DNA of 64,000 nucleotides from NCBI RefSeq assembly GCF_014931565.1, contig NZ_CP063353.1, positions 2,232,001 to 2,296,000 on the forward strand, in the 5' to 3' direction. A program made the translations under genes and the position numbers. Positions 9,942 through 48,607 of the stretch are shown piece by piece (the first letter of the stretch is position 1; the number at the start of each line of letters is the position of its first letter). The notes under the pieces were generated by a model. That model saw only the letters and a program-made list of their open reading frames with translations. It did not search any database and was not told the origin of the DNA. This DNA comes from Clostridium sp. 'deep sea' (GTDB lineage: Bacteria; Bacillota; UBA994; PWPR01).

Positions 9942-9969
9942 TACATCATTCCTTTAATTTACCTCTTGA

Positions 9970-30403: not shown

Positions 30404-31057
30404 TTATTGGTACGAATATTGAACTACATAATGAAGTATTATACCTTTGTGCTCTATCTTTATGGCAAATCTACTGTTGAAATCTAAATCAGGAAATACA
30501 TCTATAACTGAGTTATATGATTGATTACCAAAGTGCGTAAATCCAACTGCTGAATTAGCAATAGATGGTCGCTGCAATCTTCTTTCAGGATTGTTATCTA
30601 TTGTATATAATATATCTCCCCATTTATTGTTTGCTCTTAAAGTACCAGTATCATAGTAAACTATAGATATTCTTTTAATTTTACCTTTCCCATTAAATGA
30701 TCCAACATTACAAAACGAAAACCCTCCAGATGTAGTTCCACAGATTTGACCCATTTTTGTTAACCTTGGCACATCCCCAACTCCTCTCCAATTAATTCCA
30801 TTTGTGCTAATTTCTAGTTTTCCATTATTAAGTCTAAGATAACCATTTAAAAAATTGATTACTTTATTGGTGACAATATGACCATTTTCATCTGTTTTTA
30901 CATTTTTGTTAGGTTCGGCAGCTACAGTTGATAGATTACTTATACTTTGCTGAACTCCTAAAGCGGTCATGTATTTATTATTATCACTTCCATTATTAAT
31001 ATCTAATTTCGTTGCTTTTTGAATCATACCAATTCCCATATCTATAAAATTACTCAT
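30404..31057 (-). CDS. Phage tail fibre-like protein
   Basis: A 217-residue protein at the distal end of the tail element. It opens with MSNFIDMGIGMIQKATKLD, a short helical region, then ALGVQQSISNLSTVA and a beta-rich C-terminal domain with FGNQSYNSVIDVFPDLDF. This is a plausible fibre tip or fibre accessory protein, but no family is recognised. Start ATG 31057 follows GGGGGAG and overlaps the upstream fibre gene by 8 bases, so the two are coupled. It lies downstream of the amidase terminator and may have its own promoter. Confidence 0.6.
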   Translation of the reverse strand: MSNFIDMGIGMIQKATKLDINNGSDNNKYMTALGVQQSISNLSTVAAEPNKNVKTDENGHIVTNKVINFLNGYLRLNNGKLEISTNGINWRGVGDVPRLTKMGQICGTTSGGFSFCNVGSFNGKGKIKRISIVYYDTGTLRANNKWGDILYTIDNNPERRLQRPSIANSAVGFTHFGNQSYNSVIDVFPDLDFNSRFAIKIEHKGIILHYVVQYSYQ

Positions 31058-31673
31058 TAATCTCAACTCCCCCATCACTAGATATTATTAAACCCTTAGA
31101 GTTGTATTTCAGGTTGAATTTTATTATTCTTCTTATGCTTACTCCATCAACTCTAAAGTATTGCTCTGTTATTGTTTGATAAAAGCCATTATCATCTGGA
31201 TTACTGGCTGTTTTACGTAAATAAAGGGTGTTATCTTTACGTTTATATTCTACCGTAATAGGGTTTTCATTTGAGTCTGTTTCGGTTACCTCAAACTTAA
31301 GTCTATCAAGTGATAATAAACCACCATTCCATTCTATTTTATCTTTTGTTACATCTAAAATAGGGTTCCAGGTTGACCCATTATCTGTAGTATAGTCCAT
31401 ACATAAACCTACTTCACCCTCTACATTTGAATCTTTTAATATAAGTCGCTGTTGCATAGTATCTTGAGTGTTATTAATAATAACCCCAGAAGAATTATTA
31501 TCTCTATTTTCTTTTGTAAGTTTTAAACTATTATCAACAGTTAATGAACCAGTTACCATTGTATCGGTATGTACATAAGAATCTGCAATACCTTGTTCAA
31601 TACGGTTTAAATCATGTTCTGTTACTACATCATTCATTTCCCAATTTGTTTTTGATACAAAGTTTCTACTCAT
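31050..31673 (-). CDS. Tail fibre protein with shared adaptor N-terminus
   Basis: A 207-residue protein. Residues 7-33 (SKTNWEMNDVVTEHDLNRIE) match closely the start of the 39977-40225 product, an adaptor found at the head of many clostridial tail fibre proteins. The rest is beta-rich with TGSLTVDNSL and a segment resembling trimeric fibre shafts. Start ATG 31673 is set by GGATAGGTGG. Its presence beyond the lysis genes suggests a second, possibly alternative, receptor-binding fibre. Confidence 0.65.
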   Translation of the reverse strand: MSRNFVSKTNWEMNDVVTEHDLNRIEQGIADSYVHTDTMVTGSLTVDNSLKLTKENRDNNSSGVIINNTQDTMQQRLILKDSNVEGEVGLCMDYTTDNGSTWNPILDVTKDKIEWNGGLLSLDRLKFEVTETDSNENPITVEYKRKDNTLYLRKTASNPDDNGFYQTITEQYFRVDGVSIRRIIKFNLKYNSKGLIISSDGGVEINE

Positions 31674-31758
31674 TTTTCCACCTATCCAATTCATTTTTTT
31701 GTAAAACAGTACAGTTATAAACAACCTAAGTAATAAGAAAAATACTACTTAAATATAA

Positions 31759-31837: not shown

Positions 31838-32578
31838 TTACTCAACTTTATTATTCTTAAGTATTCTTCTAAACATCTCCCAAACAACCCAAGCTGGTAA
31901 TGGTTTTAGTAAGTCTTTTTTCCACTGCTCGGGGTTGTTTAAGTAACCAGCTTTTGTTAATTCATTTATAGCATGTTTACCAATTTCAGTTCGCCATTCA
32001 GGCTTAGGCCTACCAAACATCTTTATGATAGAATCGGTGAGTACCTGAGCAGCTTGTTTTCTAAACTTATCACTTTTAAGTAATTTTAGATCAGCTTTAT
32101 TAGACATAAAACCATGCTCAATTAAAACTGCAGGAATACCAGCTTTATGGGTCTCTCGGTTCATAAAGAAATTACACCATTCATTAAGATTACCGGCTCT
32201 CATTCCTCTTGAAGGATGCGTAAAGTTTTTTTGAGCTTGATTAAGCCAATGTTCACAAAATTGCTTGGCTGTTTCATTTTCATGCCAATAAAATATCCAA
32301 TAACCTCTCGGTTTGGGGTCGCTATTATAATCGGCATGAATGCTTATTAAAAAATCTGCTTTATTATTTTTAGATATTTTTAATCTTTGTTGTAGACTAT
32401 TACTATTACCTTGCAAAGGCTGGGTTAAAATTACTTGAAATCCTGCTTCTTGCAGATTTTTTTTAGCGTAACCTGCTACGGCAGAGTTAAACTCGAACTC
32501 TGCCATTTCTGGTACCCCTTTACTTTTGGTTAAGGGGTACGTTTCTATTCCGTGACCTGCATCAAGAGCGATTATCAT
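31838..32578 (-). CDS. N-acetylmuramoyl-L-alanine amidase (tail element lysin)
   Basis: A 246-residue Amidase_3 enzyme. Zinc ligands and catalytic residues are in IALDAGHG (H9), LISIHADYN (H81) and VLIEHGFMSN (Glu near 155). The C-terminal 60 residues (HAINELTKAGYLNNPEQW...) form a small helical domain often found on phage lysins. It cuts the amide bond between muramic acid and the stem peptide, releasing particles once the holin opens the membrane. There is no signal peptide. It overlaps the holin gene by 17 bases. Confidence 0.9.
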   Translation of the reverse strand: MIIALDAGHGIETYPLTKSKGVPEMAEFEFNSAVAGYAKKNLQEAGFQVILTQPLQGNSNSLQQRLKISKNNKADFLISIHADYNSDPKPRGYWIFYWHENETAKQFCEHWLNQAQKNFTHPSRGMRAGNLNEWCNFFMNRETHKAGIPAVLIEHGFMSNKADLKLLKSDKFRKQAAQVLTDSIIKMFGRPKPEWRTEIGKHAINELTKAGYLNNPEQWKKDLLKPLPAWVVWEMFRRILKNNKVE

Positions 32579-32987
32579 CTTGAGTCATCTCCGATTTATT
32601 TTGAAAAATTTTTATGGCCTGTTTTAATGCATTAGGAACTGGTAAACCAATTCTACCTGCGTTTTCTATTATGGATAATAATTCTGTTCCTAAGTAGAAA
32701 AATATAACTGCGTTCATGATTAAATTAGTTTTGGCAGTACCCAAAGCTACATCACCAAAATGACCTGCTGACACTAACAAAAAAATCATCACTTTGCCAG
32801 CTATGCCTCTTCTACCTATTTTACTAGATAATTGTTTTTCAACAAAGGCTGCCAATATTCCCGTGATGATATCTATTGAGATTATAATTACTAATACAGT
32901 GAGTAGGTCCGACCACCCACCAAACACTGCAGCTATTTTTGCTGCAATAAAAGCCAAAGAGGCTTTTATAATATTTGAGGTTTGCAT
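32562..32987 (-). CDS. Phage holin (TcdE/phage_holin_4 family)
   Basis: A 141-residue membrane protein with about three helices (10-25, 30-50, 70-110) and the family pattern IISIDIITGILAAF around 35-50 and SKIGRRGIAGK near 56. These holins form pores that let the amidase reach the wall; relatives such as TcdE also export large proteins. It is placed directly before the amidase and after the radical SAM genes, so lysis is transcribed with particle production. Confidence 0.88.
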   Translation of the reverse strand: MQTSNIIKASLAFIAAKIAAVFGGWSDLLTVLVIIISIDIITGILAAFVEKQLSSKIGRRGIAGKVMIFLLVSAGHFGDVALGTAKTNLIMNAVIFFYLGTELLSIIENAGRIGLPVPNALKQAIKIFQNKSEMTQDDNRS

Positions 32988-33002: not shown

Positions 33003-34037
33003 TTATTTATTTTTTTGGAATTTATTAGAGATGTAAACTATAAGCTTTCTGTATATCTCACAATGCTGTCCGTTAATTTTATCTAATGATTTAAACTCTC
33101 TATAAAAATGAGCATTACAACCGCCAGAGCACTTACCTGCTAACTCACAGCCGCTTAAATAACATTGCTCTAATCTCTTAGAGACTTGTTTAAGCAATTC
33201 TAATCTTTCTTTGCAATATAATATATCTCCAAAATCATCATAATCATCTAAATAGCCAAAGTTTAGTTCTCTTGGGAAAGCACCAAAATCACATAATCCT
33301 AATAAACCATCATTATCCATACCTATCCAGTGGTCATGGCAATTGGTACACAATGCACCCGAGGCTGATTGTCCTGTTAACATTTTTAAAATTTGTTTAA
33401 ACTGAAAAATTTCTATTCTATTTTGATCTTTAATCCAATAATCAAATAGCTTACACATGGATTTTATATATTTTTGAGTATATTCATTATCTATACCATC
33501 ACCAAACAGTTCATTAATTCTAAAGTGTTTTACTCCTAAAGATTTAATATGCTCGTATTCATTTATTATATTATCTAAAAAGATTTCATTGCCAACACTA
33601 ACAAGCCCTACATTAATGTTTTTACTTAATAACAGTTTTATTTTATCTGCTATTATTTCATGGTCGCACCTATAATGGTCTGATGAAAGTCCATCATAAG
33701 ATACAGCATAGCTTAGCTTAAGCCTTTTAATCAAATCTATCCATTCTTCATTAACCAATGTTCCATTAGAAGTCATTGAATACCTAACTCCTATATTTAG
33801 GCTTTTAGCATATTGATTAATTTCTTCATAAAAAGAAACTGGCATAATTAAAGGCTCTCCACCATGAAAAAAAAGAGAAATATTTTTAAAATATTTACTA
33901 GCTAATTTAATTATCTTCTTAACATTGTTAATATCTATGTCTTGTCCTGTTTTTTTAATGAGTTGGGCATCATAACAATACTTGCATTTTAAATTACATC
34001 TGTGTGTTAGTTTTAAAAAGATACTTAAATTTCTCAT
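33003..34037 (-). CDS. Radical SAM/SPASM protein A
   Basis: A 344-residue radical SAM enzyme. The [4Fe-4S]-SAM motif CNLKCKYC uses C14, C18 and C21. FFHGGEPL near 58 is the SAM-binding GGE motif. The C-terminal half (about 230-325) has a SPASM-type cysteine set: CTNCHDHW, GLCDFG, then CYLSGCELAGKCSGGC and a final HC, predicted to hold one or two extra clusters. Such proteins modify ribosomal peptides or proteins, for example through thioether or other crosslinks. It overlaps gene B by 4 bases (ATGA) and lies three genes downstream of the octad-repeat fibre. Confidence 0.9.
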   Translation of the reverse strand: MRNLSIFLKLTHRCNLKCKYCYDAQLIKKTGQDIDINNVKKIIKLASKYFKNISLFFHGGEPLIMPVSFYEEINQYAKSLNIGVRYSMTSNGTLVNEEWIDLIKRLKLSYAVSYDGLSSDHYRCDHEIIADKIKLLLSKNINVGLVSVGNEIFLDNIINEYEHIKSLGVKHFRINELFGDGIDNEYTQKYIKSMCKLFDYWIKDQNRIEIFQFKQILKMLTGQSASGALCTNCHDHWIGMDNDGLLGLCDFGAFPRELNFGYLDDYDDFGDILYCKERLELLKQVSKRLEQCYLSGCELAGKCSGGCNAHFYREFKSLDKINGQHCEIYRKLIVYISNKFQKNK

Positions 34038-35203
34038 AGCCCTATCCTGCCTTCCCAGTTATAATCAATAATTTGTTTAATAGTTGAAAGCCCTCTATAT
34101 GCAGATTTTTTTAGTTTTTTAGATACAGCTGGATTAATATTGTCTAACTCTTCTATACTTAAATCTTTGATTTTCACAAAAACATGTTTAATCATTGCCT
34201 TAAAAATATAACAAAAATTTGGATCTGGCTTAGTCGCATCACCATATAGAGTAAGTGAAGATCCGTTACAGCCTCCAAAGCAATATTCAGAAAAATCACA
34301 GGTTTTTAAACAGTTCAGCCTTTTATCTGCCTGTTGCTGTTTTAGCATTAAAAAATTTTTATGATAAAATACATTAGCAATATTCTTATAGTCACTAATA
34401 TTACCTAAGTTATAAGGATACCACCTGTCACAGGGATAAATATCCCCATTTGGGTTAAATGCTAACCACTTACCAACGCAAGTATCATAATAACAGGGTA
34501 AACTTTTTGAACCTAAAATAAGGTCTATAAAAGTCATAAAAGTTCTTTCACTCACACCATCTTTGTCACTTAACCAATAATCAAAAAACTTAAGATATTT
34601 ATCTAAAAACTCGTCTGGGTTTTCTAAAGGACGAACAATGGTACCGTTCATATCATAAGGAGTGGCTATATTATAAGAAAATGATTTTATACCATTTTCT
34701 TTATATAAATTATATGTGTCTATTAATTTATCTACATTATGGTAGCCAATTACTGTTATTAATCCACAGTTTCCTGTTTTATTAAAATATTTTTTAAAAT
34801 TACTAAATACTTTGTTACCACTGCCTCTCGAAACATCATGAGCAGTTCCATCATATGATACTCCTACATTTATTTTAAGTTTAATCATAGTTTCTATCAT
34901 ATCATCATCTAGTAATGTTCCATTTGTTTGTAGTTTAAAATCTACTGTATCTATATATTTTTCTACGATTTCACAAGCCTCAGTTAACCACTCTTTACCC
35001 ATTAACAGGGCTTCGCCACCATGCCAGATCCAATTAACAGATTTAGCAAAGTTGCCTAATTTTTTTGATATTTCCTCAACCGTATCTAATGACATATCAT
35101 TTTTTATTTCATCTCTATATTTTTTATCATAACAGTAAATACAATTTAAATTACATCTATGGGTAGGTTTAACCATAATACCTATTCTATCTAAGAGTTG
35201 CAT
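34034..35203 (-). CDS. Radical SAM/SPASM protein B
   Basis: A 389-residue radical SAM/SPASM protein. The cluster motif CNLNCIYC comprises C17, C21 and C24; WIWHGGEALL near 58 is the GGE motif. The SPASM region runs CYYDTCVGKW, IYPCDRWYPYNLGN, then CLKTCDFSEYCFGGCNG and a late FC. The pattern YNLGN after the cysteine is typical of peptide-modifying SPASM enzymes such as anaerobic sulfatase-maturase relatives. It starts inside the 3' end of the 67-residue small gene and ends in a 4-base overlap with gene A, so the three are tightly coupled. Confidence 0.9.
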   Translation of the reverse strand: MQLLDRIGIMVKPTHRCNLNCIYCYDKKYRDEIKNDMSLDTVEEISKKLGNFAKSVNWIWHGGEALLMGKEWLTEACEIVEKYIDTVDFKLQTNGTLLDDDMIETMIKLKINVGVSYDGTAHDVSRGSGNKVFSNFKKYFNKTGNCGLITVIGYHNVDKLIDTYNLYKENGIKSFSYNIATPYDMNGTIVRPLENPDEFLDKYLKFFDYWLSDKDGVSERTFMTFIDLILGSKSLPCYYDTCVGKWLAFNPNGDIYPCDRWYPYNLGNISDYKNIANVFYHKNFLMLKQQQADKRLNCLKTCDFSEYCFGGCNGSSLTLYGDATKPDPNFCYIFKAMIKHVFVKIKDLSIEELDNINPAVSKKLKKSAYRGLSTIKQIIDYNWEGRIGL

Positions 35204-35390
35204 AATAAGAGCCTTTCATTATTTTTAACTGTTTATATGAATCTTCTAAAAGTTTCTGTTGGTTTATTTCAGCTTTATTGGCAGCAAAATGAACATCTGT
35301 ATGCCTGAAACCTCGCTCTTCAACATTATTAAATTTTTTAAAAAGCCTTAATTCATTTATATTAAAATTAGCTACTTTATAATCTTTCAT
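35187..35390 (-). CDS. Small protein between radical SAM genes
   Basis: A 67-residue basic protein (MKDYKVANFNINELRLFKKF...) with no Cys. Residues 27-55 are probably helical and end in SYKQLKIMKGSYYATLR. It overlaps the next radical SAM gene by 17 bases, a spacing typical of precursor peptides or recognition subunits beside their maturases. I do not recognise a family. It could be a precursor whose Tyr/Lys-rich C-terminus is modified, a RiPP recognition element-like partner, or a fibre chaperone. RBS is GAGGTGAAGAC. Confidence 0.55.
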   Translation of the reverse strand: MKDYKVANFNINELRLFKKFNNVEERGFRHTDVHFAANKAEINQQKLLEDSYKQLKIMKGSYYATLR

Positions 35391-35425
35391 GTCTTCACCT
35401 CAACTAAAGAGTATTTAAAATAAAA

Positions 35426-36556
35426 TTATCTTCTGTTTAGTAATTTTTTTACTATAGGATTTAAAATTGGTTTATTAGTGTTGTTTATATAGTTATATAC
35501 ATGAGTAAATGTTTTTTTAAATATTGTACAATCTCTAGTAGCATGGCTTGCTACATCTCCATTATCACTTAAAGCTGTTGCTGGACAAGCACCGTGACAA
35601 ATATGAAAGAGATTACATTTTATCTCGTCTCTGCAGCGTGTTAGTTTTTTACTAACTTGGTTTACATAGTTTTCATAACTAGTGCTTAGAAATGCTTCTT
35701 GAAAAGTTAATTCATTAATATTACCCATTTGGTATTCTTCTGTCCAATCTCTACCACATGGATAATAATTACCCCTAGGATCTACACTAATCCATTTATA
35801 ATTGCAGATCATATTATTACAGACCATGCCCTTTTTTTGACCTATGGCAAGTTTTATTAATCTATCAAAATTTGTTATAGATGATCTACAATCCATTTTT
35901 GTAATATAGTGATTAAATAACTCACACATATAATTTATATATTGATTTATGTTCATATCATCGTATAAGTCTTTATCCATATGTTTTGTTTTAAACATAG
36001 GGGCAAACTGAACATTAATATTTAACATATTAAAGTACTCAAACTCTTTAATTAACTGCTGATAATTATTTTTACTAACTAAGCATATACAGCCTAAAGA
36101 ACCCGAGCTTTTTCTTGTAAGTTGCATATTCTTTAGGATTTTTTTAGTAGAACCCCTAGTTAATTCGTTAGTTAAACCATCAAAACTAAAACCAAATGAA
36201 ATTCCATATGTATTTGCAACCTCTAAAATCTCTTCACTTAATAATGTTGCATTGGTTTGTATTGCTGCCTCAATATTACATCTGTAAGAAGAATTATATA
36301 CTCTTAAAAGCTGCCCTAATTCTTTAATCCACTCAACACCTACAAGCAAGGGTTCACCTCCATGTAGTACTATTGAACCCCCTTCGTAGTACCTAGCAAC
36401 GTTATAGATTATTTTTTCTAATATTTCCAGAGACATTACGGTTACATTATCTTTAATGTTTTTATCTCTGTTATAACAGTATGGGCATTGTAGATTGCAG
36501 TCGTTAGTTACTTTAGCTATAACAGTTATGTATTTGTTTTGATTTTTTTCAAACAT
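35426..36556 (-). CDS. Radical SAM/SPASM protein C
   Basis: A 376-residue radical SAM/SPASM protein. The cluster motif CNLQCPYC comprises C20, C24 and C27; SIVLHGGEPLL near 60 is the GGE motif. The SPASM set includes MVCNNMICNYKW, YYPCGRDW, then CRDEIKCNLFHICHGACPA and a late RDC. ATG 36556 is preferred over a longer frame because AAGAGG is suitably placed. It is separated from the octad-repeat gene by a short hairpin, which may lower enzyme level relative to substrate, as seen in many RiPP operons. Confidence 0.9.
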   Translation of the reverse strand: MFEKNQNKYITVIAKVTNDCNLQCPYCYNRDKNIKDNVTVMSLEILEKIIYNVARYYEGGSIVLHGGEPLLVGVEWIKELGQLLRVYNSSYRCNIEAAIQTNATLLSEEILEVANTYGISFGFSFDGLTNELTRGSTKKILKNMQLTRKSSGSLGCICLVSKNNYQQLIKEFEYFNMLNINVQFAPMFKTKHMDKDLYDDMNINQYINYMCELFNHYITKMDCRSSITNFDRLIKLAIGQKKGMVCNNMICNYKWISVDPRGNYYPCGRDWTEEYQMGNINELTFQEAFLSTSYENYVNQVSKKLTRCRDEIKCNLFHICHGACPATALSDNGDVASHATRDCTIFKKTFTHVYNYINNTNKPILNPIVKKLLNRR

Positions 36557-36596
36557 TACTATACCTCTTTTTGTAAATATAGTTGGTTTAAAAGTA

Positions 36597-36623
36597 AAAG
36601 TGATAGGCAATGCCTATCACTTT
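36597..36623 (-). terminator. Hairpin between fibre and radical SAM C genes
   Basis: Perfect palindrome AAAGTGATAGGCA / TGCCTATCACTTT just after the octad-repeat gene, followed by TTACTTTT on the minus strand. It is probably a partial terminator. Confidence 0.7.
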
Positions 36624-36631
36624 ATATTCTT

Positions 36632-37780
36632 TTAACCTATATTATCTAATATATTTCTTATTTCTTTTAAATCAATTCCTGCAACACCTGTGTTATTTGT
36701 CTGTAATGTTTCTCTGCTAAATGGATATGTTGATTCACCATTTAACGCTTGCTGAGCCTTTAAAGCTTCGGTTCTAAGCTCAGTTATATGTGCAACTTTC
36801 ATCTTGGTTACATTAGCTGTTATTGGTCCTTCTGCCCAGGTTGGGGCAGTTAGATTTGCAGAGGTTATGGCAGTGTTTAACTCTGTTCTTAATTCATCTA
36901 TATCTGCTTTACGTAATCTCTTTGCATTATCATCTATAACAGTAGCCCATGATGGCGCTTTATAATGACATATAGTAAGGACTTCCGATTCAATAGCAGG
37001 GCTAAACTCTTTTTTATCCCATGCTCTTACCTGTACTTTATACTCTCCAGCAGTAAGCTTACTTGTATCCCAATCGTACTCATTACTAGTATGATTGGCT
37101 GAAGTATTAACTAACATTACCCAATTTTCCCAGATATCACTCTCAGACTGTCGATAAGCATACTGTAATTCATAATAAATAGTATTATTATCTGCATCTG
37201 TTGCAACAGGCCAAGCTAATGAAATTAAAGTATTAAAGGTATTAGCTGGTGGACTAATAACCCCTGATATTACAGGATTATAATTATCTGTATAGTTGGT
37301 ATGGGTACTACAGCCAGAATTACTATGAGTATTACAACCACTATCACTATGCGTATTACAACCAGTATTAGAGTGGGTATTACAGCCTGTATCTGAATGA
37401 GTACTACAACCAGAGTTTGTATGATCATGGCAGCCAGAGTTTTTATCTGCATGGGCAGTATAACACCCTACACTACAATTACAATACTTGGCATTATTAT
37501 TATGATATTGATAGTAATTATCACAACCACTTTCACTGTAATTATTACAACCTTCAGAATAATGGTTATCATACCCATTAGAAGATCTATTATCATAACC
37601 ACAATCATAGTGATCATCATATCCTGAATTATAATGATTACTATATCCTGTATTTGTATGAAGGTTATTTAGTCGATACTCATCATAGGTATTAGGTGAT
37701 AATACAGGGTTATAAGAGTCTGTTCCAATGTTATTTTCTGTTAGGGTTGAATCTAAATACTGAACATTAGAATTAGTCAT
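36632..37780 (-). CDS. Octapeptide-repeat, Cys/Tyr/His-rich fibre-like protein
   Basis: A 382-residue protein. Residues 43-161 hold twelve 8-residue repeats of the form (N/D/S)-(S/T)-G-(Y/C)-x-x-(H/N/Y)-x, six before and six after a 23-residue insert (91-113) that has YCNCSVGCYTAH. The first four repeats have Tyr at position 4 and the last eight have Cys; the second block is mostly GC(N/S)THS. Similar words TDSYNPVLS (20-28) and TDNYNPVIS (164-172) bracket the repeats. A fibronectin-III-like domain follows (about 170-265), then two copies of an HI(D/T)ELRTE-type helix. There is no signal peptide. It lies where receptor-binding fibres sit, surrounded by radical SAM genes, so it is the prime candidate substrate. 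Confidence 0.75.
   Translation of the reverse strand: MTNSNVQYLDSTLTENNIGTDSYNPVLSPNTYDEYRLNNLHTNTGYSNHYNSGYDDHYDCGYDNRSSNGYDNHYSEGCNNYSESGCDNYYQYHNNNAKYCNCSVGCYTAHADKNSGCHDHTNSGCSTHSDTGCNTHSNTGCNTHSDSGCNTHSNSGCSTHTNYTDNYNPVISGVISPPANTFNTLISLAWPVATDADNNTIYYELQYAYRQSESDIWENWVMLVNTSANHTSNEYDWDTSKLTAGEYKVQVRAWDKKEFSPAIESEVLTICHYKAPSWATVIDDNAKRLRKADIDELRTELNTAITSANLTAPTWAEGPITANVTKMKVAHITELRTEALKAQQALNGESTYPFSRETLQTNNTGVAGIDLKEIRNILDNIG
37298..37654 (-). repeat. 24-base coding repeats of the octad domain
   Basis: DNA encoding twelve 8-residue repeats in two blocks of six. The block at 37298-37441 is more uniform than the other, suggesting recent unequal duplication. Confidence 0.8.
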
Positions 37781-37791
37781 TTGTATCACCT

Positions 37792-38076
37792 CTATCTAAT
37801 GATATCTCCAGTAATAGTAAGTGTCCCTTTAGCTCCCGATGATGAGTCATCAATCATTAATTTGGCATCTGTGATATTTGTTACTGTAATAATTTCAGTT
37901 TCTGTAAATTTAAACACAATCTTATTAGAGCTCTTAAATAGCTCCACTGCATTAAAATCTATATCTTCAAAGTTTTGATTTATGTTAATTTCAGCATTAA
38001 CTCCATCAAAATTAAAGTGCAATCCTTCAGCTTTAAAATTGTGTAAAACATCATCTATGATTATTTGCTTAATCAT
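37792..38076 (-). CDS. Small beta-rich protein of the tail insert
   Basis: A 94-residue acidic protein (MIKQIIIDDVLHNFKAEG...) predicted to be mostly beta strand, ending in SSSGAKGTLTITGDIIR. It has no cysteines or signal peptide. It abuts the stop of radical SAM D and lies 11 bases ahead of the octad-repeat gene start. It could be a fibre cap, chaperone or collar piece. No family is recognised; the 40227-40508 product is a protein of similar size and style but not clearly homologous. Confidence 0.6.
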   Translation of the reverse strand: MIKQIIIDDVLHNFKAEGLHFNFDGVNAEININQNFEDIDFNAVELFKSSNKIVFKFTETEIITVTNITDAKLMIDDSSSGAKGTLTITGDIIR

Positions 38077-39048
38077 TTATTTCACTCCTTGATATTTGTG
38101 TAATTTATATGCATGACATCCACAACTCTGGTTATTATTTCTTTTGTAAATTGTGCAGTCTTTGCATTCTTCAAACAGCTTTACTGTATATAAATCTTTG
38201 AATTTATCGTGCATATGATTTGATAACTCTTGTACATTCTTAAAGTTTGTAAGTTTAGTAGAATACTCTCTGGAGAGACCAAAACATCTTACTACATCTA
38301 AATTAGGAGAAACATCTAGTACAGTACCACAAGATCTATTTACTAAATTTATAGCACTACAGTATACCATTTCTCTTAAATCTGTATCTTCTAATAAACA
38401 TAAAGGAATACTATTGCAATCTAACCGTATGTTTTTTCTATACTTTACACTATCTTTAAAGAAGTTCTTTAGTAGAGGTATAAAGCTTTTATAGTATTCT
38501 TTAATATCAAACTCATTTGCTATTTCTACATTAGGAACAGCAATGCTCCAACGTATACTAGGAATATTAAATCTATTGGCTATATCAAATATATATTTAT
38601 AGTTCATGTTTGGCTTATAGATATTTATTCCTACTACTTCTACTATTCTCTTTTTAGCTAAATTCTCTATATTGTAAAGTAAAGTGTTATAATTTTTTTT
38701 GCCAATAATCTCTTGTTCATTACAATTTGGCAATAAGGTAACTCTTTTAGAACTAGATGCTAACAAAATTGTTTGCAGAATATTTTCATTAAAAACTGCA
38801 TTAGAGAAAATGTGCATTGCTTTAAAATGTGGATCGTTCGCAATTTTGCACACAAAATAAGCAAAATTAGGATGCAAAGTTGGCTCTCCACCTATAAATC
38901 TAATATTATTTTCACCAGCTTGCTTTAACCAATTTACTATTACTTCGAAGTTTTCTCTGTTCATATTTATTTTTTGTTTACCCATAACATCATTGGCAAA
39001 GCAATAACTACAGTTTAAATTACAATAATTATTAAGTAAGATGTTCAT
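38077..39048 (-). CDS. Radical SAM protein D
   Basis: A 323-residue radical SAM protein, distinct from A-C. The cluster motif CNLNCSYC comprises C9, C13 and C16, starting almost at the N-terminus, and IRFIGGEPTLHP near 49 is the GGE motif. The C-terminal part has scattered cysteines: VYCSAINLVNRSCG, VVRCFGLS, then EECKDCTIYK and SCGCHAYK, which may ligate an auxiliary cluster but do not follow the SPASM order cleanly. It is adjacent to the subtilase (9 bases) and the small beta protein. The different architecture suggests a second type of modification or a separate target. Confidence 0.85.
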   Translation of the reverse strand: MNILLNNYCNLNCSYCFANDVMGKQKINMNRENFEVIVNWLKQAGENNIRFIGGEPTLHPNFAYFVCKIANDPHFKAMHIFSNAVFNENILQTILLASSSKRVTLLPNCNEQEIIGKKNYNTLLYNIENLAKKRIVEVVGINIYKPNMNYKYIFDIANRFNIPSIRWSIAVPNVEIANEFDIKEYYKSFIPLLKNFFKDSVKYRKNIRLDCNSIPLCLLEDTDLREMVYCSAINLVNRSCGTVLDVSPNLDVVRCFGLSREYSTKLTNFKNVQELSNHMHDKFKDLYTVKLFEECKDCTIYKRNNNQSCGCHAYKLHKYQGVK

Positions 39049-39057
39049 TATACTCTC

Positions 39058-39960
39058 CTAAAATACCATTTTTGGTTTGTAATTACTTTCTTTTAACGAT
39101 TCAAAAACATACTTTAATGTTGGTACACCTAAACCATATTCGTTATCAAAACCTATCTCGCCTAGGTCTATTGTATTTTTAGTAAACCATTTTCTTAATT
39201 GAAATACATTATACTTAGTCCCAAAATATTTAAGCCTTAGGTGTACAAGTACTCCTATAATATTAACTGCTATAGCAGTCGCTGGAGAAGATCCACTTAA
39301 AATAGCAAATCTACCGAATGAGTATAGTGAAGGTATATTTACACTAGGACAAACGATATCTAGCTCATCACCAGTAGCACTAAATTTTGCCCTTTTTAAT
39401 GAATAATCTATTCCACCAACACATATTACCTCTTTTAATTTAGCAGGATACTCTATTTCTTGTGGGTTATTTCCGGCAGAGGCTACTAAAATAATTCCTT
39501 TATTTACGGCATTCTTTATTATTTTATGTAGCTCTATAGAATACTCTGTAGAGCCAAAAGCCATACAAACAATATCTATTTCATTTTTAATGCACCATTT
39601 TATACCATCAATAACAGTATCATGTGACATAACACCATCATCATCAGTTATTTTTACTGAGTATAAATTTGCATTTTGCAATACCCCAATTTCTTTTCCT
39701 GCTATTAAACCAGCTATATATGTGCCATGCCCTACTCTATCAACTGTATTAACTTGAGAATTAGTTAGTACATTAAATGTACCATTTAATCTATTAACCA
39801 AATTGGCATGTTTATGGTCAACACCAGAATCCATTATCGCTATTTTAAGTAACTCACCTTTAGCAATAGTGTTTAAAGGATAAACATATGATTCTTTGTA
39901 AAATTTTTTTAAATCGTTTAAAGTATTAAGTTTATTTATATTTTTATAAATTGCTGACAT
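39058..39960 (-). CDS. Subtilisin-family (S8) serine protease, cytoplasmic
   Basis: A 300-residue S8 peptidase. Catalytic residues are D44 in IAIMDSGVDHK, H78 in RVGHGTYIAG, oxyanion N164 in VASAGNN, and S225 in SGSSPATAIA. There is no signal peptide and only a short N-terminal region instead of a long prodomain. Located between fibre adaptor and radical SAM D, it is likely to act inside the cell, either cutting a leader from the modified protein or processing a fibre. Its family is otherwise common in RiPP operons (PatA/LanP types). RBS is weak and overlaps a Met-poor leader. Confidence 0.9.
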   Translation of the reverse strand: MSAIYKNINKLNTLNDLKKFYKESYVYPLNTIAKGELLKIAIMDSGVDHKHANLVNRLNGTFNVLTNSQVNTVDRVGHGTYIAGLIAGKEIGVLQNANLYSVKITDDDGVMSHDTVIDGIKWCIKNEIDIVCMAFGSTEYSIELHKIIKNAVNKGIILVASAGNNPQEIEYPAKLKEVICVGGIDYSLKRAKFSATGDELDIVCPSVNIPSLYSFGRFAILSGSSPATAIAVNIIGVLVHLRLKYFGTKYNVFQLRKWFTKNTIDLGEIGFDNEYGLGVPTLKYVFESLKESNYKPKMVF

Positions 39961-39976: not shown

Positions 39977-40225
39977 CTATGCATAGGTACCTTCTACAAC
40001 CCATGTTGATCCATCCCAAAACTTCTTTACATAAGGTGTGTTTGAAGTATCTATCCACATTTTATAAATTGATGTGTCTGGCTCTACTGCTCCCTCATAA
40101 ACAGGACTTAGATTATTAAATATTCCTACTACATCAGATACACCTTTTTCAATTCTATTAAAATCATGTTCTGTAACAATATCATTTTTTTGCCAATTAG
40201 TTTTTGAAGTATAGTCAAGTGGCAT
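39977..40225 (-). CDS. Short tail fibre adaptor protein
   Basis: An 82-residue protein. Residues 7-30 (SKTNWQKNDIVTEHDFNRIE) match the N-terminus of the 31050-31673 fibre. The second half (GAVEPDTSIYKMWIDTSNTP, then KFWDGSTWV) is a fibre-surface motif frequent in Firmicute phage tails. It may be a stub adaptor that links the baseplate to a separately encoded fibre, or a fibre truncated by insertion of the radical SAM module. Start ATG 40225 follows GAGGGGTG. Confidence 0.7.
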   Translation of the reverse strand: MPLDYTSKTNWQKNDIVTEHDFNRIEKGVSDVVGIFNNLSPVYEGAVEPDTSIYKMWIDTSNTPYVKKFWDGSTWVVEGTYA

Positions 40226-40226
40226 A

Positions 40227-40508
40227 TTATTCACCCCTCACTGTAATACGGTATATAAGTGTTGTTTCTGCTCTAATAATAGGAATATTAACATTGTTGT
40301 TTGATATTATAGTTCCATCACTTAAGCGACACTTAAAGTTTGTTAAATTTTTAATACTACTTGGTATTTTTAACTCAAGTTCAACAACATTTTCAGTTAC
40401 TTGTTTATACAAAAAACTACTGATGACTTCAGTGTCATTCAGTAGTATATCGTGCATATCTGTATTCAACCTATTAGTAACTGAATTTAAATAAATACTA
40501 TTAATCAA
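40227..40508 (-). CDS. Baseplate/tail-associated protein, unknown
   Basis: A 93-residue beta-rich protein with no recognised domain. It overlaps the DUF2313 gene by 8 bases at its start and ends one base before the fibre adaptor start codon, so it belongs to the baseplate-fibre transition of the tail operon. Confidence 0.6.
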   Translation of the reverse strand: MINSIYLNSVTNRLNTDMHDILLNDTEVISSFLYKQVTENVVELELKIPSSIKNLTNFKCRLSDGTIISNNNVNIPIIRAETTLIYRITVRGE

Positions 40509-41082
40509 TAATTGTCACCTCGTTTACTAACTCACCAAATTTTGAATTACCTAAAGACCACAAGCCTAGCTTAGTGTATCGATCATACTCTTTAATCATG
40601 GCTTTTTCATCAAATAAAATTCTATTTTCATCAGCCACCCCAATTTCACATACCATATTAGCTGGTAAATATACATTAACAGTACGATCCATTTCATTAA
40701 TAATATCTGCATCTTTAGCTGGCATGTTAACCTTTACTTTGTACTCTGCTACTACAGGTTTAATTGTTACCTGTCGACCTTCGGCCATAGCACTAATTTG
40801 CTCTTCTAAAAATTTCATAGTAAACGGAGGACGAGTGCTATAACGGTTAATTATACGTAAACGTCTAAAGTCTAAACTCTCTCCCCCTAAACTATCTATC
40901 CCTAGTTCATTCTCACGTTTTTTTAGAGTTTCGGTAGAGGTAGCTACAAACTGGTTATCTAAAATCCATTTTAATGCTGTCTTTAGCTTATCTATTTCAT
41001 TTCCCTCTGAATTCATTAATGCTTGAATTTCAGGAAACTGTTTATAGTAGTTTGGTAAGTATTTTAATAATTTATGAGACAT
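40501..41082 (-). CDS. DUF2313 tail protein (XkdU/YmfQ-like)
   Basis: A 193-residue protein starting SHKLLKYLPNYYKQFPEIQ, the typical opening of DUF2313 (YmfQ/XkdU) proteins, which cap the baseplate wedge after the gpJ homologue in PBSX and Mu-like tails. The middle block RRLRIINRYSTRPPFTMKFL and the C-terminal VYLPANM beta region fit. It overlaps the baseplate J gene by 11 bases. Confidence 0.85.
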   Translation of the reverse strand: MSHKLLKYLPNYYKQFPEIQALMNSEGNEIDKLKTALKWILDNQFVATSTETLKKRENELGIDSLGGESLDFRRLRIINRYSTRPPFTMKFLEEQISAMAEGRQVTIKPVVAEYKVKVNMPAKDADIINEMDRTVNVYLPANMVCEIGVADENRILFDEKAMIKEYDRYTKLGLWSLGNSKFGELVNEVTIID

Positions 41083-42124
41083 TGATAGTCACCGTCCCTA
41101 ATACAGGAACCTCAGTTTCACTTATAGTTAGATTAGAAGTATTACTATTTAATAATAAACTAGTGATGTCATTAATTCCTTTAATTCCTAATATGGCTGA
41201 ATTAACGTAAGAAACTCTTACCGTAGTTTTACTGAAAGAAATTGATTTAAAGTATTTTTTTATTTCATTTTCTACCTCAGGTTTTACATCTGCCTCAGAA
41301 TAACCCTCTGCTAGTTCTAAGGTTGTCTCTATATTAATTTGTGCTGCCGTAACTGGTTCAGCTGTAAATACATGACCTATTGGAACTAATCCATAACCTT
41401 TTCCGTTTTTATCTGGATCAAGTTCATTCTGTACTTTTTGAATTAATTCAGCACTAGGTACACCCATTAAAGTGTCAACTATTACAGCTTTTACGGTTCC
41501 AGCACCGTTCCATAAAGGAAAAATTTTTGCATCTCCAACACCATCAATTTTTAAAACCCAATCACGGTATTGATTTACATTACCACCATAAGTGGGTTCA
41601 TTGATTATTCGCAAATAACGCTGATAAAGAGCATCGTCGCTTTCTTCATTTTCACCAGGTATAACAATGTCTGTTAAATTAGCTGAAACTAAATCTGGCA
41701 ACTCAGTGATTGGTATTAGTTTACCTACATCTCTATTACCAATCTCACCACTTATTTCACACTCAACAATTACATTATCTTGACCTGCTGAAATATCTGC
41801 CACAATATAAGTAAGTTCATTTAAACTGTATCTGTCACCAATAGCTGGAGTGGCTCCCTCAAATACTACTTTTCGTTTTGCCTTTGTGGCAGCTAATCTA
41901 TTAACTCCAAACTCTGCACAACGACGTGTTAAATAACTACCACTAGCAGTATCCGCAAAGGTTAGTTGTAAAACATTCTCTAGGTTTAAATAAGCCTCAG
42001 TTAATTCTATAGCTGCAGGTGCTAAGGCATCGTAAATAATACTGCCTTGGCGTTTATCTATATTACTAGGAACTTCATTTAACATTGATTGCAAAATAGA
42101 CTCATATGTTTTATGCTCATACAC
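41072..42124 (-). CDS. Baseplate J-like protein (XkdT-like)
   Basis: A 350-residue gpJ-family baseplate wedge protein. Recognisable blocks: TYESILQSMLNEVPSNIDKRQGS at the start, ASGSYLTRRCAEFGVNR near 90, and GGNVNQYRDWVLKIDGVGDAKIFPLW near 180. It forms the wedge that links the hub to the fibres and triggers sheath contraction. It overlaps both neighbours, as is normal for PBSX-type tail operons. Confidence 0.92.
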   Translation of the reverse strand: MYEHKTYESILQSMLNEVPSNIDKRQGSIIYDALAPAAIELTEAYLNLENVLQLTFADTASGSYLTRRCAEFGVNRLAATKAKRKVVFEGATPAIGDRYSLNELTYIVADISAGQDNVIVECEISGEIGNRDVGKLIPITELPDLVSANLTDIVIPGENEESDDALYQRYLRIINEPTYGGNVNQYRDWVLKIDGVGDAKIFPLWNGAGTVKAVIVDTLMGVPSAELIQKVQNELDPDKNGKGYGLVPIGHVFTAEPVTAAQINIETTLELAEGYSEADVKPEVENEIKKYFKSISFSKTTVRVSYVNSAILGIKGINDITSLLLNSNTSNLTISETEVPVLGTVTINVS

Positions 42125-42524
42125 TTACAATCACCTCCATATCTATATCGCCTTCAATACTTAATACTGTAAATTTAATTGGTACTTTGCCAGTTAAGTT
42201 ATCGTTAAAAACAAAGTTAGTTACATCCAAAATCCTGTCATCTACTATTAGGGCATCTTTAATAATTCTTCTTAACTCTGCTTTAATATAGTCACTATTT
42301 TTTCCTACTAGGCTATTTATTTCGTGACCATAATCCCAATCGTAAATTAAAAAACGATACCTTTCTGTGTTTAGTATTTTTATAACTGTTTGACTAATAG
42401 CATGAATTCCATCTACATTGCCAACTATTCTTTTATTACTAAAATCTAGTTTATAGGTTTTGCTTGGGAATCTACTATCATCTATATTTACGCTTAATGC
42501 ATTATTACTTGGTATTAAAGCCAT
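42117..42524 (-). CDS. DUF2634 baseplate protein (XkdS-like)
   Basis: A 135-residue protein of the gp25/DUF2634 type. The segment ISQTVIKILNTERYRFLIYDWDYGHEI near 45-70 is the family core, a lysozyme-like baseplate wedge subunit. It lies between the DUF2577 and baseplate J genes, the same order as xkdR-xkdS-xkdT in PBSX. Start ATG 42524 follows GGTGGTG; the preceding gene ends three bases upstream. Confidence 0.88.
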   Translation of the reverse strand: MALIPSNNALSVNIDDSRFPSKTYKLDFSNKRIVGNVDGIHAISQTVIKILNTERYRFLIYDWDYGHEINSLVGKNSDYIKAELRRIIKDALIVDDRILDVTNFVFNDNLTGKVPIKFTVLSIEGDIDMEVIVSV

Positions 42525-42526
42525 AA

Positions 42527-42910
42527 TCACACCACCTTATCTAATACAATATATTTTTGTCCACCTTGAATACGTAATAGAATAACTCTATCATTTACAG
42601 CTAAGGCACTCGAAACCTCTATATTACTTAAATCACTACTATTAGCTTTTGGTGGTTCGGTGTCTTTATTAATTGAATTTGAACCGTCATTATCTTCGTA
42701 TTGATGGGTATGATTAAGGTTTAGACTTTTTGATTGTAATCTATGAGTTAGTATTAAGAAATCTTTGTCTATAATGAATCTCTGATCAACTTTTATTTGT
42801 AAAGGATTAGCATCTATTACTAAACCAAACATCACAGCAATACCTTGCTGTGATTCAGAAACATTCGTGTTTATTGTTTTTATCATGTTAACTAATTTAC
42901 TTGCACTCAT
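42527..42910 (-). CDS. DUF2577 tail protein (XkdR-like)
   Basis: A 127-residue DUF2577 protein: GIAVMFGLVIDANPLQIKVDQRFII near residues 23-47 and a polar loop with NHTHQYEDNDG, then ALAVNDRVILLRIQGGQKYIVLD. The fold is related to the OB-like gpV/central spike region. The start codon follows one base after the hub gene stop. Confidence 0.85.
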   Translation of the reverse strand: MSASKLVNMIKTINTNVSESQQGIAVMFGLVIDANPLQIKVDQRFIIDKDFLILTHRLQSKSLNLNHTHQYEDNDGSNSINKDTEPPKANSSDLSNIEVSSALAVNDRVILLRIQGGQKYIVLDKVV

Positions 42911-43867
42911 TTATATCACCTTCAAAGTTAAACTCATAGTATGTTGTCCACCATTAAAATTATGGCTACAATCATCTGTTATTAATAGTTGCTTTCTATT
43001 AAGATCTTTTATGTTAATATATATGGCATTACCAGCTCTAATTCGTAAGTCTCCTACAGCGTCTAGTTGTAAGCTTAGAGCTGATCTATTTTTATTTGAT
43101 AATAGTTGTTTTGCTCTCTCTTGAATTTGAGCTTCATTTAACTTTTCTGAAACCTTTTCGTAGTACTGTAGAGTTCCCCAACTTATAATATTTGATTTAT
43201 CTTGAACAATATAGGCCTCTCTTTTACCGGTTTTTTCGTTATCTTTAACTAGTTTTATTTTATTAAAGCTATCTTTATCTATATTTTGCTCATAGTTATA
43301 ACCTGTCATTAAAGAGCTATCTCCTATAATAACTGGTAGTCTCATATCTTCAATATCTCGTAAAACTAACTTGCCAAAATCATCGTAAAAAACAAATAAT
43401 TTTCCGGTATTAATTAAGGTTAAATCAAGGGCTTTATAAATAATATCTATTAGAGATTGGCTATCTTCAACCATAGCAGGAATTAAGTACTTAGTGTTAG
43501 CTAAATTACCAACTTTAAGTTGAAAATCTGATGTTATTCTTTTTATTATTTGATCAGCTCTTTTTGCCTTAAACACATATGTTTCTTTATTTAAAAGATA
43601 TCTCACTTGGTCATAAGCTGTTATAGAGGCCTTATTATCTTGATTGTACTGTATACTAAAAATGTACCCATAAAAAATATTTTTATTATTGTACTTAAAC
43701 CTTATAATACTCCCGTTTTCAAGCAAACTAATATTTTCACTTATCATTGAAAAAGTTAGGGTACTTGCTTTGCCAACTCGAAGTGTTTGCCATTTTATAT
43801 CTTCAACAATATTTGAGATATTATATACCTTGCCGCTTTTGGAGTTTTGTAAATAAAGCTCTATCAT
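42911..43867 (-). CDS. Tail hub protein (XkdQ-like)
   Basis: A 318-residue gpD/gp27-type hub protein. It starts IELYLQNSKSGKVYNISNIVEDIKW, as in XkdQ, with GKASTLTFSM near 32, YNQDNKASITAYDQVRYLLNK near 75 and a C-terminal RAGNAIYINIKDLN. The trimeric hub joins tube and spike. It overlaps the LysM gene by 4 bases. Confidence 0.88.
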   Translation of the reverse strand: MIELYLQNSKSGKVYNISNIVEDIKWQTLRVGKASTLTFSMISENISLLENGSIIRFKYNNKNIFYGYIFSIQYNQDNKASITAYDQVRYLLNKETYVFKAKRADQIIKRITSDFQLKVGNLANTKYLIPAMVEDSQSLIDIIYKALDLTLINTGKLFVFYDDFGKLVLRDIEDMRLPVIIGDSSLMTGYNYEQNIDKDSFNKIKLVKDNEKTGKREAYIVQDKSNIISWGTLQYYEKVSEKLNEAQIQERAKQLLSNKNRSALSLQLDAVGDLRIRAGNAIYINIKDLNRKQLLITDDCSHNFNGGQHTMSLTLKVI

Positions 43868-44541
43868 CCTCTTACATCTCCATCTGGTAACTTTATAACT
43901 TGACCGGCATAGATATCCGTATAGCTATAAATATTGTTTTCTTTTTGAATATTTTTAGCCTTGTTACCATCGTTTAGCTCTTTTTTAGCAATAGAAAATA
44001 ATGTATCTCCTTTTTTGGCAATGTATTTTTTGGCTACTTCTTTGGTTTGAGTTCTTTTTTTAGCTTTATTCTTTATTACTACTTTACTAGATTTTTTACT
44101 AGAAATTACCGAAACCTCTTGAGCACTAAACTCACGATATTCTTTGATATTCATTTTATAAAAAATATCGCCTGGTTGGCCTGCTTTTTCCTCAAACTCA
44201 AACTGTTCAAGTAAACATAAAATATTAATTGGAGTAGCACTACCACATATTACTATTCTTAATATTTTTTTTGCTGTTTTCCATTGCAATAGCTTTTCTA
44301 CATAGTATTTTGGCTCGAAATGAGACTCTGCTGTTACATATGGGCCAGCATACTTTGGGAAAAAGCTTTCTATACTAAGAGATAATAGCTTTCTGTCTTC
44401 AGGAACTATTATTTCGCCAAAGTTTACGATATTATGTGTTTTACTGTTACCATCATGAGATATAGGTAAGCTTTTAGGTAAAACAGGTAGCTCGATAACT
44501 TCGGAGTTATCTTTTAACCCTATATACATACGATAGGTCAT
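43864..44541 (-). CDS. LysM-containing tail protein (XkdP-like)
   Basis: A 225-residue protein. The N-terminal part (1-150) carries the DUF1371-like block LPKSLPISHDGNSKTHNIVNFGEI of XkdP. The C-terminal LysM domain (about 170-222) has KYIAKKGDTLFSIAKKELNDG and IYAGQVIKLP. It is thought to sit between tape measure and hub, gripping the baseplate or cell wall. It overlaps both neighbours by 4 bases. Confidence 0.88.
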   Translation of the reverse strand: MTYRMYIGLKDNSEVIELPVLPKSLPISHDGNSKTHNIVNFGEIIVPEDRKLLSLSIESFFPKYAGPYVTAESHFEPKYYVEKLLQWKTAKKILRIVICGSATPINILCLLEQFEFEEKAGQPGDIFYKMNIKEYREFSAQEVSVISSKKSSKVVIKNKAKKRTQTKEVAKKYIAKKGDTLFSIAKKELNDGNKAKNIQKENNIYSYTDIYAGQVIKLPDGDVRG

Positions 44542-46085
44542 ACAGCATACACCCCTCTCGCTGAATTAGCTATCTCTTTTTCAAGAGCACTTGTTATTAC
44601 ACCTAATAACTTATTAGCGTCAGCATTTTCATTTATTGTTGTACTGCCAAAGCTTACTGTTGGAGTAAGTGTTACAAAGTTCTTAATAGCTTCTCGTTCT
44701 GCAACATCACGCATAAGCTTAATATCTTCATCAGCAATATTAACATCGTTATTAATTTTTCCAACCTCTTCTACTACTTTAATATGTTTGTCAGCATTAT
44801 TAGTAGCGTTTAGCCCAGTTGTTGATGCAAGGTCATCTATTTTTTTGGTTTTTTTATTAATACCAAGCCATCTACCAAACTTGGCAACAAGATCAGCAAA
44901 AAAATTAACTAAATGTAGTATTATAGTAGCTACTGACATAATAAACTTACCTACAATTATTAAAATTTTCATTATAACAGAAACTATTGGAATAATATAT
45001 GCCAAAGATTCTTTTAGTGTTTTTAAGAAAAGCTGAAATACAGGGCCCTCCAATAATTGAATTACATCATCTAAGATTGGTTTTATGGGTGCCAATAAAT
45101 CTGTACCAAAGGTAGACTTTAGACTTCGCAAAGAGTTTTGGATTATTTGCACCTTACCCAAAGTGGTATCTTCCATATCAGTTAGAAATCTATCAGTATA
45201 GCCCAATTCTGTTAGCACCTTATCTAAACCTTGCACCACACCATCAACATTACCAGCATTAGCTAAATCTGCTAAGCCAGCTGAGTTAATTGATTCTTCT
45301 GATATACCACTACTAATTAAAGCCGAAAAGTCTCCACTTAAGGCACTCTTAAAAGCATTTGCTACGCTAGATACATCACTTGAGCTAGCCATAGCTAATC
45401 TCTCTGACATAGCTAAAACCTTTTCCATATTATTACCAGCATTAGCTGAGCCACTAAGCTTAGGGGCTAGGCTTTCTCCTGCCTTCATAAAATCTTCTAG
45501 CTCAAAAGTAGAGTGAAATGCAGACTTATAGATTGATTCAACAATTTCATTTTCCTTATTTCCGGATTTATATCTTATTAGTTTTTCAGCTTTTTGAGTT
45601 TTAGCAGCAGGTAAAAGTACTGCATTCCAGATTTTTTTACCTAACTCAAATACTGACTTTGCAACTGCTACTACTTTGCTAAATTTAGAAAGCACATTTG
45701 CTGCAGATCCTATTACAGATTTTCCAGTATTAAATATTCTTGAAACAAAATTACCTACAGGTCCAATAGAATTACCTGGTCTGTGATATCTATTAATTGA
45801 TACTTTACCAAGTGCTTTTTTCTCTGTTGCTTTTACTTTTTCTTTAATTTTACTAATAGAATCACTTATAGATTGCCTAATAACAGATTCCACATCTAAT
45901 GAAAAGTTATAATTATTTGTTATATTATTAGTTATATTTTCAGTAGTGTTATATGTTTTATTAATGTTTTTCTCAATCTGACCACTTAATTTAAGGCTTA
46001 AGGATAGTTTATTATTGATGTTACGTATGAATTTATCAAACTTATTTATAGTACCAATATTAGAGTCTAAAATATCTCTATTCAT
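44538..46085 (-). CDS. Tail tape measure protein
   Basis: A 515-residue protein with the composition of tape measures: N-terminal coiled coils (about 10-110), a long helical middle, and two hydrophobic segments at about 345-400 (LAYIIPIVSVIMKILIIVGK). It lies directly after the chaperone pair. At roughly 0.15 nm per residue the predicted tail is only about 75 nm long, short for a myovirus and compatible with a compact tailocin; this length estimate is inference. Confidence 0.85.
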   Translation of the reverse strand: MNRDILDSNIGTINKFDKFIRNINNKLSLSLKLSGQIEKNINKTYNTTENITNNITNNYNFSLDVESVIRQSISDSISKIKEKVKATEKKALGKVSINRYHRPGNSIGPVGNFVSRIFNTGKSVIGSAANVLSKFSKVVAVAKSVFELGKKIWNAVLLPAAKTQKAEKLIRYKSGNKENEIVESIYKSAFHSTFELEDFMKAGESLAPKLSGSANAGNNMEKVLAMSERLAMASSSDVSSVANAFKSALSGDFSALISSGISEESINSAGLADLANAGNVDGVVQGLDKVLTELGYTDRFLTDMEDTTLGKVQIIQNSLRSLKSTFGTDLLAPIKPILDDVIQLLEGPVFQLFLKTLKESLAYIIPIVSVIMKILIIVGKFIMSVATIILHLVNFFADLVAKFGRWLGINKKTKKIDDLASTTGLNATNNADKHIKVVEEVGKINNDVNIADEDIKLMRDVAEREAIKNFVTLTPTVSFGSTTINENADANKLLGVITSALEKEIANSARGVYAV

Positions 46086-46089
46086 TCTA

Positions 46090-46661: not shown

Positions 46662-46663
46662 AA

Positions 46664-47125: not shown

Positions 47126-47126
47126 A

Positions 47127-48599: not shown

Positions 48600-48607
48600 C
48601 AACTAAA

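Follow-up and report, generated by a model that had tools for sequence, protein, structure and literature searches.

Cross-linking by radical S-adenosylmethionine (SAM) enzymes has so far been known from small peptides and enzyme subunits. Here we describe a stretch of 64,000 nucleotides from Clostridium sp. 'deep sea' (contig NZ_CP063353.1; called the window below, all coordinates being those of the window), in which four radical SAM (rSAM) genes and an octad-repeat protein occupy the fibre locus of a contractile tail element. Among described systems, the His-Xaa-Ser (Hxs) systems (NCBIfam TIGR03978 and relatives) pair a repeat protein of His-x-residue triads with more than one radical SAM protein; we know of no Hxs system with tail genes. 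The present locus shares this pairing, but the HxsB model scores far below its cut-off (62-70 bits against 370 for two of the enzymes, rSAM-B and rSAM-C) and the triads of the window end mostly in Asn/Asp.

SPASM enzymes that form three-residue cyclophanes join Trp, Phe, Tyr or His at position i to residues at i+2 that include Asn and Asp (PMC11002830). The triceptide enzymes (XncB, OscB/GrrM, MscB, YxdB, HaaB, YhhB) are, like those of the window, SPASM-type radical SAM proteins, and their substrates likewise carry an aromatic residue or His at i and Asn, Asp or another acceptor at i+2 (a pattern from which one relative of our locus, L179, departs). The two differ in the substrate: theirs are precursors of ribosomally synthesized and post-translationally modified peptides (RiPPs), whereas here it would be a 385-aa structural protein of the tail with many repeats and several enzymes per locus, and no short precursor gene with a leader was identified. 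The cassette would work like a triceptide-type RiPP system, but is not filed there because the family cut-offs are not reached.

In the maturation of quinohemoprotein amine dehydrogenase (QhpD/QhpE), radical SAM cross-linking of a structural subunit is also combined with a cytoplasmic S8 protease; the protease of the window, however, falls below the QhpE cut-off and the cassette holds no amine dehydrogenase gene. Closest in solved sequence and fold is anSMEcpe, whose known layout of eight auxiliary cysteines recurs here, although the scores for the family (TIGR03942, anaerobic sulfatase maturase) are 108-143 bits against a cut-off of 349 and no sulfatase is found among the annotated neighbours of the cassette. 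As to the particle, PBSX/diffocin-type tailocins share the Xkd-like contractile tail, the own regulators, the holin and amidase and the absence of detected head genes. What sets the present element apart is its fibre locus, where four radical SAM genes accompany a repeat protein.

We consider it probable, at roughly 60%, that the locus encodes a tailocin whose repeat fibre is iteratively cross-linked by the radical SAM enzymes, in effect a RiPP on the scale of a virion, with a chemistry that is read from sequence patterns. Enzymes and repeat protein are coupled both physically and evolutionarily. The cassette contains the following features:

33003-34037, minus strand: rSAM-D, SPASM-type maturase (Pfam Radical_SAM 9e-15)
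34034-35203, minus strand: rSAM-C, SPASM maturase (Pfam Radical_SAM 4e-15, SPASM 1.7e-4)
35187-35390, minus strand: 67-aa partner protein ('..LFKKFNNxEER..'), overlapping the start of rSAM-C
35426-36610, minus strand: rSAM-B, SPASM maturase (Pfam Radical_SAM 9e-16, SPASM 6.6e-6)
36597-36623, minus strand: terminator-like hairpin with a 12 bp stem, directly after the octad gene
36632-37789, minus strand: octad-repeat fibre protein, 385 aa, GTG start, the proposed substrate
37792-38076, minus strand: 94-aa protein without relatives
38077-39048, minus strand: rSAM-A, 323 aa (Pfam Radical_SAM 6.5e-13), distant from rSAM-B, C and D
39058-39960, minus strand: S8 serine protease (Pfam Peptidase_S8 3e-37), Asp/His/Ser motifs present
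39977-40234, minus strand: N-terminal stub of a fibre, 85 aa (phrog_15651 tail fibre, 5e-6)

A preliminary description had placed four radical SAM genes, an S8 protease, small proteins and the octad protein between the baseplate J/DUF2313 genes and holin/amidase, and all are present there. The span it gave, 33003-39960, covers the cassette, but the functional unit also takes in the fibre stub just upstream (39977-40234).

Recurrence and association of enzymes and repeats

A profile search of IMG/VR yielded another tail with this cassette, L099 (with L321 as its sibling). Here the order is gpJ, DUF2313, a fibre stub, a repeat protein, rSAM-A, a 102-aa homologue of the 67-aa protein (pairwise E 6e-11), two SPASM enzymes, a second fibre stub and an amidase. 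Identities between window and L099 are 35% for rSAM-A (E 1.6e-74), 34% for rSAM-C (E 1.6e-73) and 32% between rSAM-B and the second SPASM enzyme of L099 (E 5e-58), and rSAM-D matches L099 as well (pairwise E 1.6e-46). The octad protein has local BLAST similarity (E 6e-6) to the L099 repeat protein, which is built of 11-residue repeats (HTNTGYSAYSD). Used as a query, it finds no relatives beyond chance or generic low-scoring matches in phages, IMG/VR, its own class (a small class of its phylum, 15 genomes sampled) and 398 genomes of the phylum.

Four siblings from the same metagenome (L302, L307, L314, L318) are near-identical to L099/L321 in gpJ, tail and lysis genes and carry one or two ordinary fibre-like genes at the place where L099/L321 hold the cassette. 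Since the cassette is thus swapped for an ordinary fibre among sibling phages, it is a fibre module: a conserved, exchangeable unit of tail fibre loci. Its enzymes are under purifying selection, with a dN/dS (ratio of nonsynonymous to synonymous substitution rates) of 0.016-0.125 for the enzyme genes of L099/L321 and of 0.15-0.16 for rSAM-A and repeat genes of the bacterial loci described next.

Searching 398 genomes of the phylum with rSAM-A returned full-length relatives (34-36% identity) from three genomes and no others; all three belong to one other genus, which we take to be Dehalobacter. Their cassettes (L023, L025, L027, L028; two copies in two genomes) encode, besides rSAM-A and a SPASM enzyme, a protein in which YSN/WENH repeats precede an Ig-like stretch, as well as a U32 peptidase. 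They adjoin a Tad/type IVc-like pilus locus, which includes pseudopilin-like genes and encodes a type IV prepilin peptidase. Candidatus Dichloromethanomonas shares this cassette. The link between enzymes and repeats, tied to tails in the preliminary description, therefore extends to a neighbour of pilus genes. Two further rSAM-A-like genomes among 83 of the Dehalobacter class have no repeat protein on their short contigs. Matches similar to rSAM-A from goat, termite, Bacteroidales and Anaerolineae come without repeat proteins. Among human faecal entries labelled 'Bacteriophage sp.', those that carry SPASM genes resemble bacterial DNA and likewise lack a repeat protein.

Across viral loci, repeat proteins were scored by a composition criterion, both in loci fetched by SPASM similarity (79) and in a control fetched by baseplate gpJ (78). 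L099 and the Dehalobacter-type loci were left out of these and the other viral counts (41 loci and 25 proteins, below), their spacing being analysed separately. A repeat protein is present in 36 of the 79 SPASM loci against 1 of the 78 control tails, and of all the controls this one, L321, alone carries radical SAM genes. Repeat and radical SAM gene are usually adjacent or close together: the distance is less than 1.5 kb in 35 of the 41 repeat-bearing viral radical SAM loci. Given that some loci are near-duplicates, a non-redundant set of 137 viral radical SAM proteins was used for the enzyme tree. On this tree the dialect of the repeat (Cys or Omega, the latter being its aromatic or His residue) changes 6 times, against a mean of 18.0 and a minimum of 9 when whole loci are shuffled (0 of 300 shuffles as low); the tree, built with FastTree from divergent sequences, is an approximation, but the clustering is pronounced. 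Repeat dialect tracks enzyme phylogeny, and in the rSAM-A clade every sampled member lies near a repeat protein. Synteny with L099, the fibre swap among siblings, the enrichment over controls and the co-variation of dialect and phylogeny all argue for the earlier proposal that the repeat protein of the fibre locus is the probable radical SAM substrate.

The Thermus phages phiLo (MH673673, L330), Cumys (PQ109079, L348) and phiMa (MH673674, L349) each have a SPASM-like radical SAM enzyme and an H-x-D repeat protein. In a set of 50,697 phage records, neither this repeat protein nor the close enzyme (at least 55% identity) occurs outside these three, and in Cumys and phiMa the two are adjacent. 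Annotated baseplate and tail collar fibre genes are followed in Cumys by the repeat protein, an 'rSAM protein' and DUF483, and the order in phiMa is the same; given the label in the Cumys record, the depositors noticed the enzyme. Enzyme and DUF483 partner recur in about 20 IMG/VR loci.

Repeat grammar and enzyme family

The octads of the window (for example GYDNHYSE or GCNTHS[ND][ST]) have mixed positions that can be written as G-[YC]-x-x-H-x-[ND]. They are followed by a predicted beta-rich region and a C-terminal helical region ('..LRxADIDELRxEL..'); the AlphaFold2 model of the protein is unusable (pLDDT, the predicted local distance difference test score, is 34). In the repeat region, Asn or Asp stands at +2 of 18 of the 28 Tyr/His/Trp residues (z 5.4 against composition shuffles, a test that assumes shuffled repeats and in which periodic sequences inflate z at several offsets). 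The same spacing is seen for 43 of 65 residues in L099, 20 of 28 and 21 of 31 in Dehalobacter-type proteins, and 57 of 62, 58 of 62 and 80 of 98 in Cumys, phiMa and phiLo, respectively. When seven offsets are compared in each of the 25 non-redundant repeat proteins that contain 8 or more Omega residues, +2 ranks first in 13; those where it does not come out on top are mostly Cys dialects (CNCNYCTC, CxxxC).

Several other repeat proteins were met during the survey. A 146-kb phage contig (L179:10001-11974) carries an rSAM-A relative with a Trp repeat protein (WTT/WDN/WGN) close behind. Purely Cys-rich repeat proteins (CNCNYCTC; CTGTC-like) occur in two groups of phage loci (L108, L139, L145, L146, L152 and L113, L116, L125, L129), several of which have more than one radical SAM gene; '..FDEIRGAL..' helical segments are present in some, and these repeats are possibly a second, thioether-like dialect. 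In Vibrio phage D479 (OZ195776; L332:8917-9429), an unannotated open reading frame (ORF) of 170 aa with TSWTTSWTTSWTTKW repeats adjoins two radical SAM genes. An ORF containing YSNYSNYSNY lies near fragmented radical SAM ORFs in a phage of 232 kb (L100/L180, IMGVR_UViG_3300033463_000007), which may use a recoded stop codon.

Three of the four enzymes had been credited with SPASM-type cysteine sets, which the alignment bears out: rSAM-B, C and D have all eight auxiliary SPASM cysteines in common, and B and C also pass the Pfam SPASM cut-off. rSAM-A has seven invariant cysteines in addition to its CX3CX2C motif and is therefore probably SPASM/twitch-like too. The AlphaFold2 model of rSAM-C matches the folds of anSMEcpe (4k36; template modelling scores 0.72/0.76) and ChlB (9gm3).

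Tail element and accessory genes

The host genome is a single contig of 3.83 Mb, and the surroundings of the cassette are as follows:

~53.6 to 30.4 kb, minus strand: tail element (regulators, tail, fibre cassette, lysis genes, second fibre)
40227-49018, minus strand: contractile tail genes (phrog_6293, DUF2313, gpJ, baseplate proteins, XkdP-like, tape measure, XkdN-like, tube, sheath)
41072-42124, minus strand: gpJ
40501-41082, minus strand: DUF2313
40227-40508, minus strand: phrog_6293
32562-32987, minus strand: holin
31838-32578, minus strand: amidase
31050-31724, minus strand: second fibre gene
30404-31078, minus strand: 224-aa protein

The element starts with a sigma-like regulator and a RecE-like protein. 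Sheath, tube, tape measure, baseplate and lysis genes of a contractile tailocin are present, and no capsid, portal or terminase genes were found in the scanned flanks (up to 55.6 kb). Within the window, the earlier view of a headless tail with genuine tail genes (sheath, tube, XkdN, tape measure, baseplate) thus holds. The cassette occupies the fibre site, between baseplate genes and holin/amidase; the other contractile tail of the same genome has ordinary fibres without radical SAM genes. Consecutive genes on the stretch that leads from the 67-aa gene via rSAM-C and rSAM-D to the holin either overlap or are separated by very short gaps. The hairpin after the octad gene could yield substrate in excess of enzyme. 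Upstream of the tail genes, a 242-aa protein (49174-49902) has a weak NeuB-family match (E 1.7e-6).

Of the small proteins, the 85-aa stub matches a 385-aa fibre of a related tail (L254, E 3.9e-6) and, in an alignment of 31 aa with the second fibre at 31050, shows 61% identity; these alignments identify it as the anchor end of a fibre found at full length in sibling tails, and it was rejected as a precursor. The 67-aa protein was likewise rejected, as its homologue is the N-terminal domain of the Dehalobacter-type SPASM enzyme (pairwise E 5e-4 plus motif alignment). Given this fusion, the free protein looks like a split enzyme domain, and a partner of the enzyme is a more likely role for it than a precursor.

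The S8 protease has no visible signal peptide. Against NCBIfam it matches mycosin (5e-31) and QhpE (4e-27; 95 against 165 bits), both below the curated cut-off. It was not found in the other cassettes compared and otherwise matches only generic phage subtilisins; it was rejected as a conserved cassette marker and is no standing component of the system.

Proposed mechanism and alternatives

In the mechanism that we propose, rSAM-B, C and D would act iteratively on the repeats, aided by the 67-aa partner, in the anaerobic cytoplasm and ahead of assembly and lysis. Each Tyr or His (Trp in relatives) would be joined to the Asn/Asp at i+2, giving three-residue cyclophanes, whereas rSAM-A, and possibly the Cys positions too, may contribute a further link. 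As the octad mixes Tyr, His and Cys positions, separate enzymes may serve separate positions, which is our guess as to why there are four. The product would be a rigid, protease-resistant rod reaching from the baseplate anchor to the C-terminal domains, and the S8 protease may trim or release it, as QhpE does for the QhpD-modified subunit.

A number of observations weigh against this mechanism. For 63 of the 137 non-redundant viral radical SAM proteins no repeat protein was detected within 5 kb; the +2 preference is subject to the inflation of z described above, and L179 (WTT/WGN) has no clear +2 peak (z 1.5). The NCBIfam cyclophane families (GrrM/OscB, YhhB, XyeB, FxsB, AmcB) score no higher than about 102 bits, their cut-offs being 310-450, the anaerobic sulfatase maturase and DynA models score equal to or above them, and the nearest solved structures are anSMEcpe and ChlB. 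Moreover, Cys is present 12 times in the window repeat and forms the basis of other phage dialects, which makes thioethers possible. The main rival, which we regard as conceivable though rather unlikely, starts from these residues: the enzymes would modify the repeat at Cys (by thioethers as in sactipeptides, ranthipeptides and QhpC, or by Cys/Ser oxidation as in anaerobic sulfatase maturases) and not join Tyr/His to Asn/Asp. It would account for the fact that the 12 Cys sit at the octad position otherwise taken by Tyr, and it agrees with the purely Cys-rich repeats of several viral radical SAM loci (C-C spacing of 4, or of 2 and 7), with the thioether-forming 5wgg, which is found with anSMEcpe among the nearest solved structures, and with the resemblance of the S8 protease to QhpE, partner of a thioether-forming enzyme. 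The repeats of L099 and the Dehalobacter-type loci, however, are entirely without Cys even though they go with the same rSAM-A, partner and SPASM set, and what these Cys-free repeats have in common is the +2 spacing.

Two other explanations were weighed. That the repeat is an unmodified metal-binding or low-complexity fibre segment (comparable to the iron-binding HxH sites that the literature describes for some phage fibres), with the radical SAM enzymes acting elsewhere, suits the richness in His, Cys and Asp, but we hold it to be improbable: repeat proteins are enriched at radical SAM loci and nearly absent from control tails, dialect follows enzyme phylogeny, and some dialects (YSN, WTT) have few or no His or Cys. 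Least probable of all, in our judgement, is a passenger bacteriocin or RiPP cluster that was inserted in the tail operon by chance, with the 67-, 85- or 94-aa protein as its precursor. Small genes do adjoin the SPASM genes, and the genome does contain, at another place, a RiPP-like cluster with small precursors that is unrelated to the cassette (L346, G000:C1:346000-358000; at 5544-9947 three nearly identical peptides of 63-71 aa, which share GGDWGLWSKSSP, accompany a radical SAM gene and a PqqD-like protein). Against this stand the fusion of the 67-aa homologue to the enzyme in Dehalobacter-type genomes, the identity of the 85-aa protein as a fibre anchor, the same cassette at the same place in an unrelated tail (L099) and the lack of a transporter gene in the cassette.

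Beyond this one locus, it is an evenly balanced proposition that surface appendages of phages and tailocins, and some pili, are built in a common, hitherto undescribed way, in which dedicated radical SAM enzymes would staple dozens of Omega-x-Asn/Asp (or Cys) triads along an encoded repeat into covalently rigid fibres, with enzyme and dialect co-evolving and being exchanged as fibre cassettes. No description of radical SAM-modified phage fibres was found in a literature search (bioRxiv preprints and most subscription papers lying outside it). As a rule for genome mining, tail loci can be screened for SPASM genes with a repeat protein next to them. Cumys, phiMa and phiLo, cultured phages whose records give a laboratory host strain, are ready test systems. 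If the proposal is true, virion proteins carry covalent chemistry that is invisible to sequence-based structure prediction, which would bear on fibre stability, host recognition and robust peptide materials.

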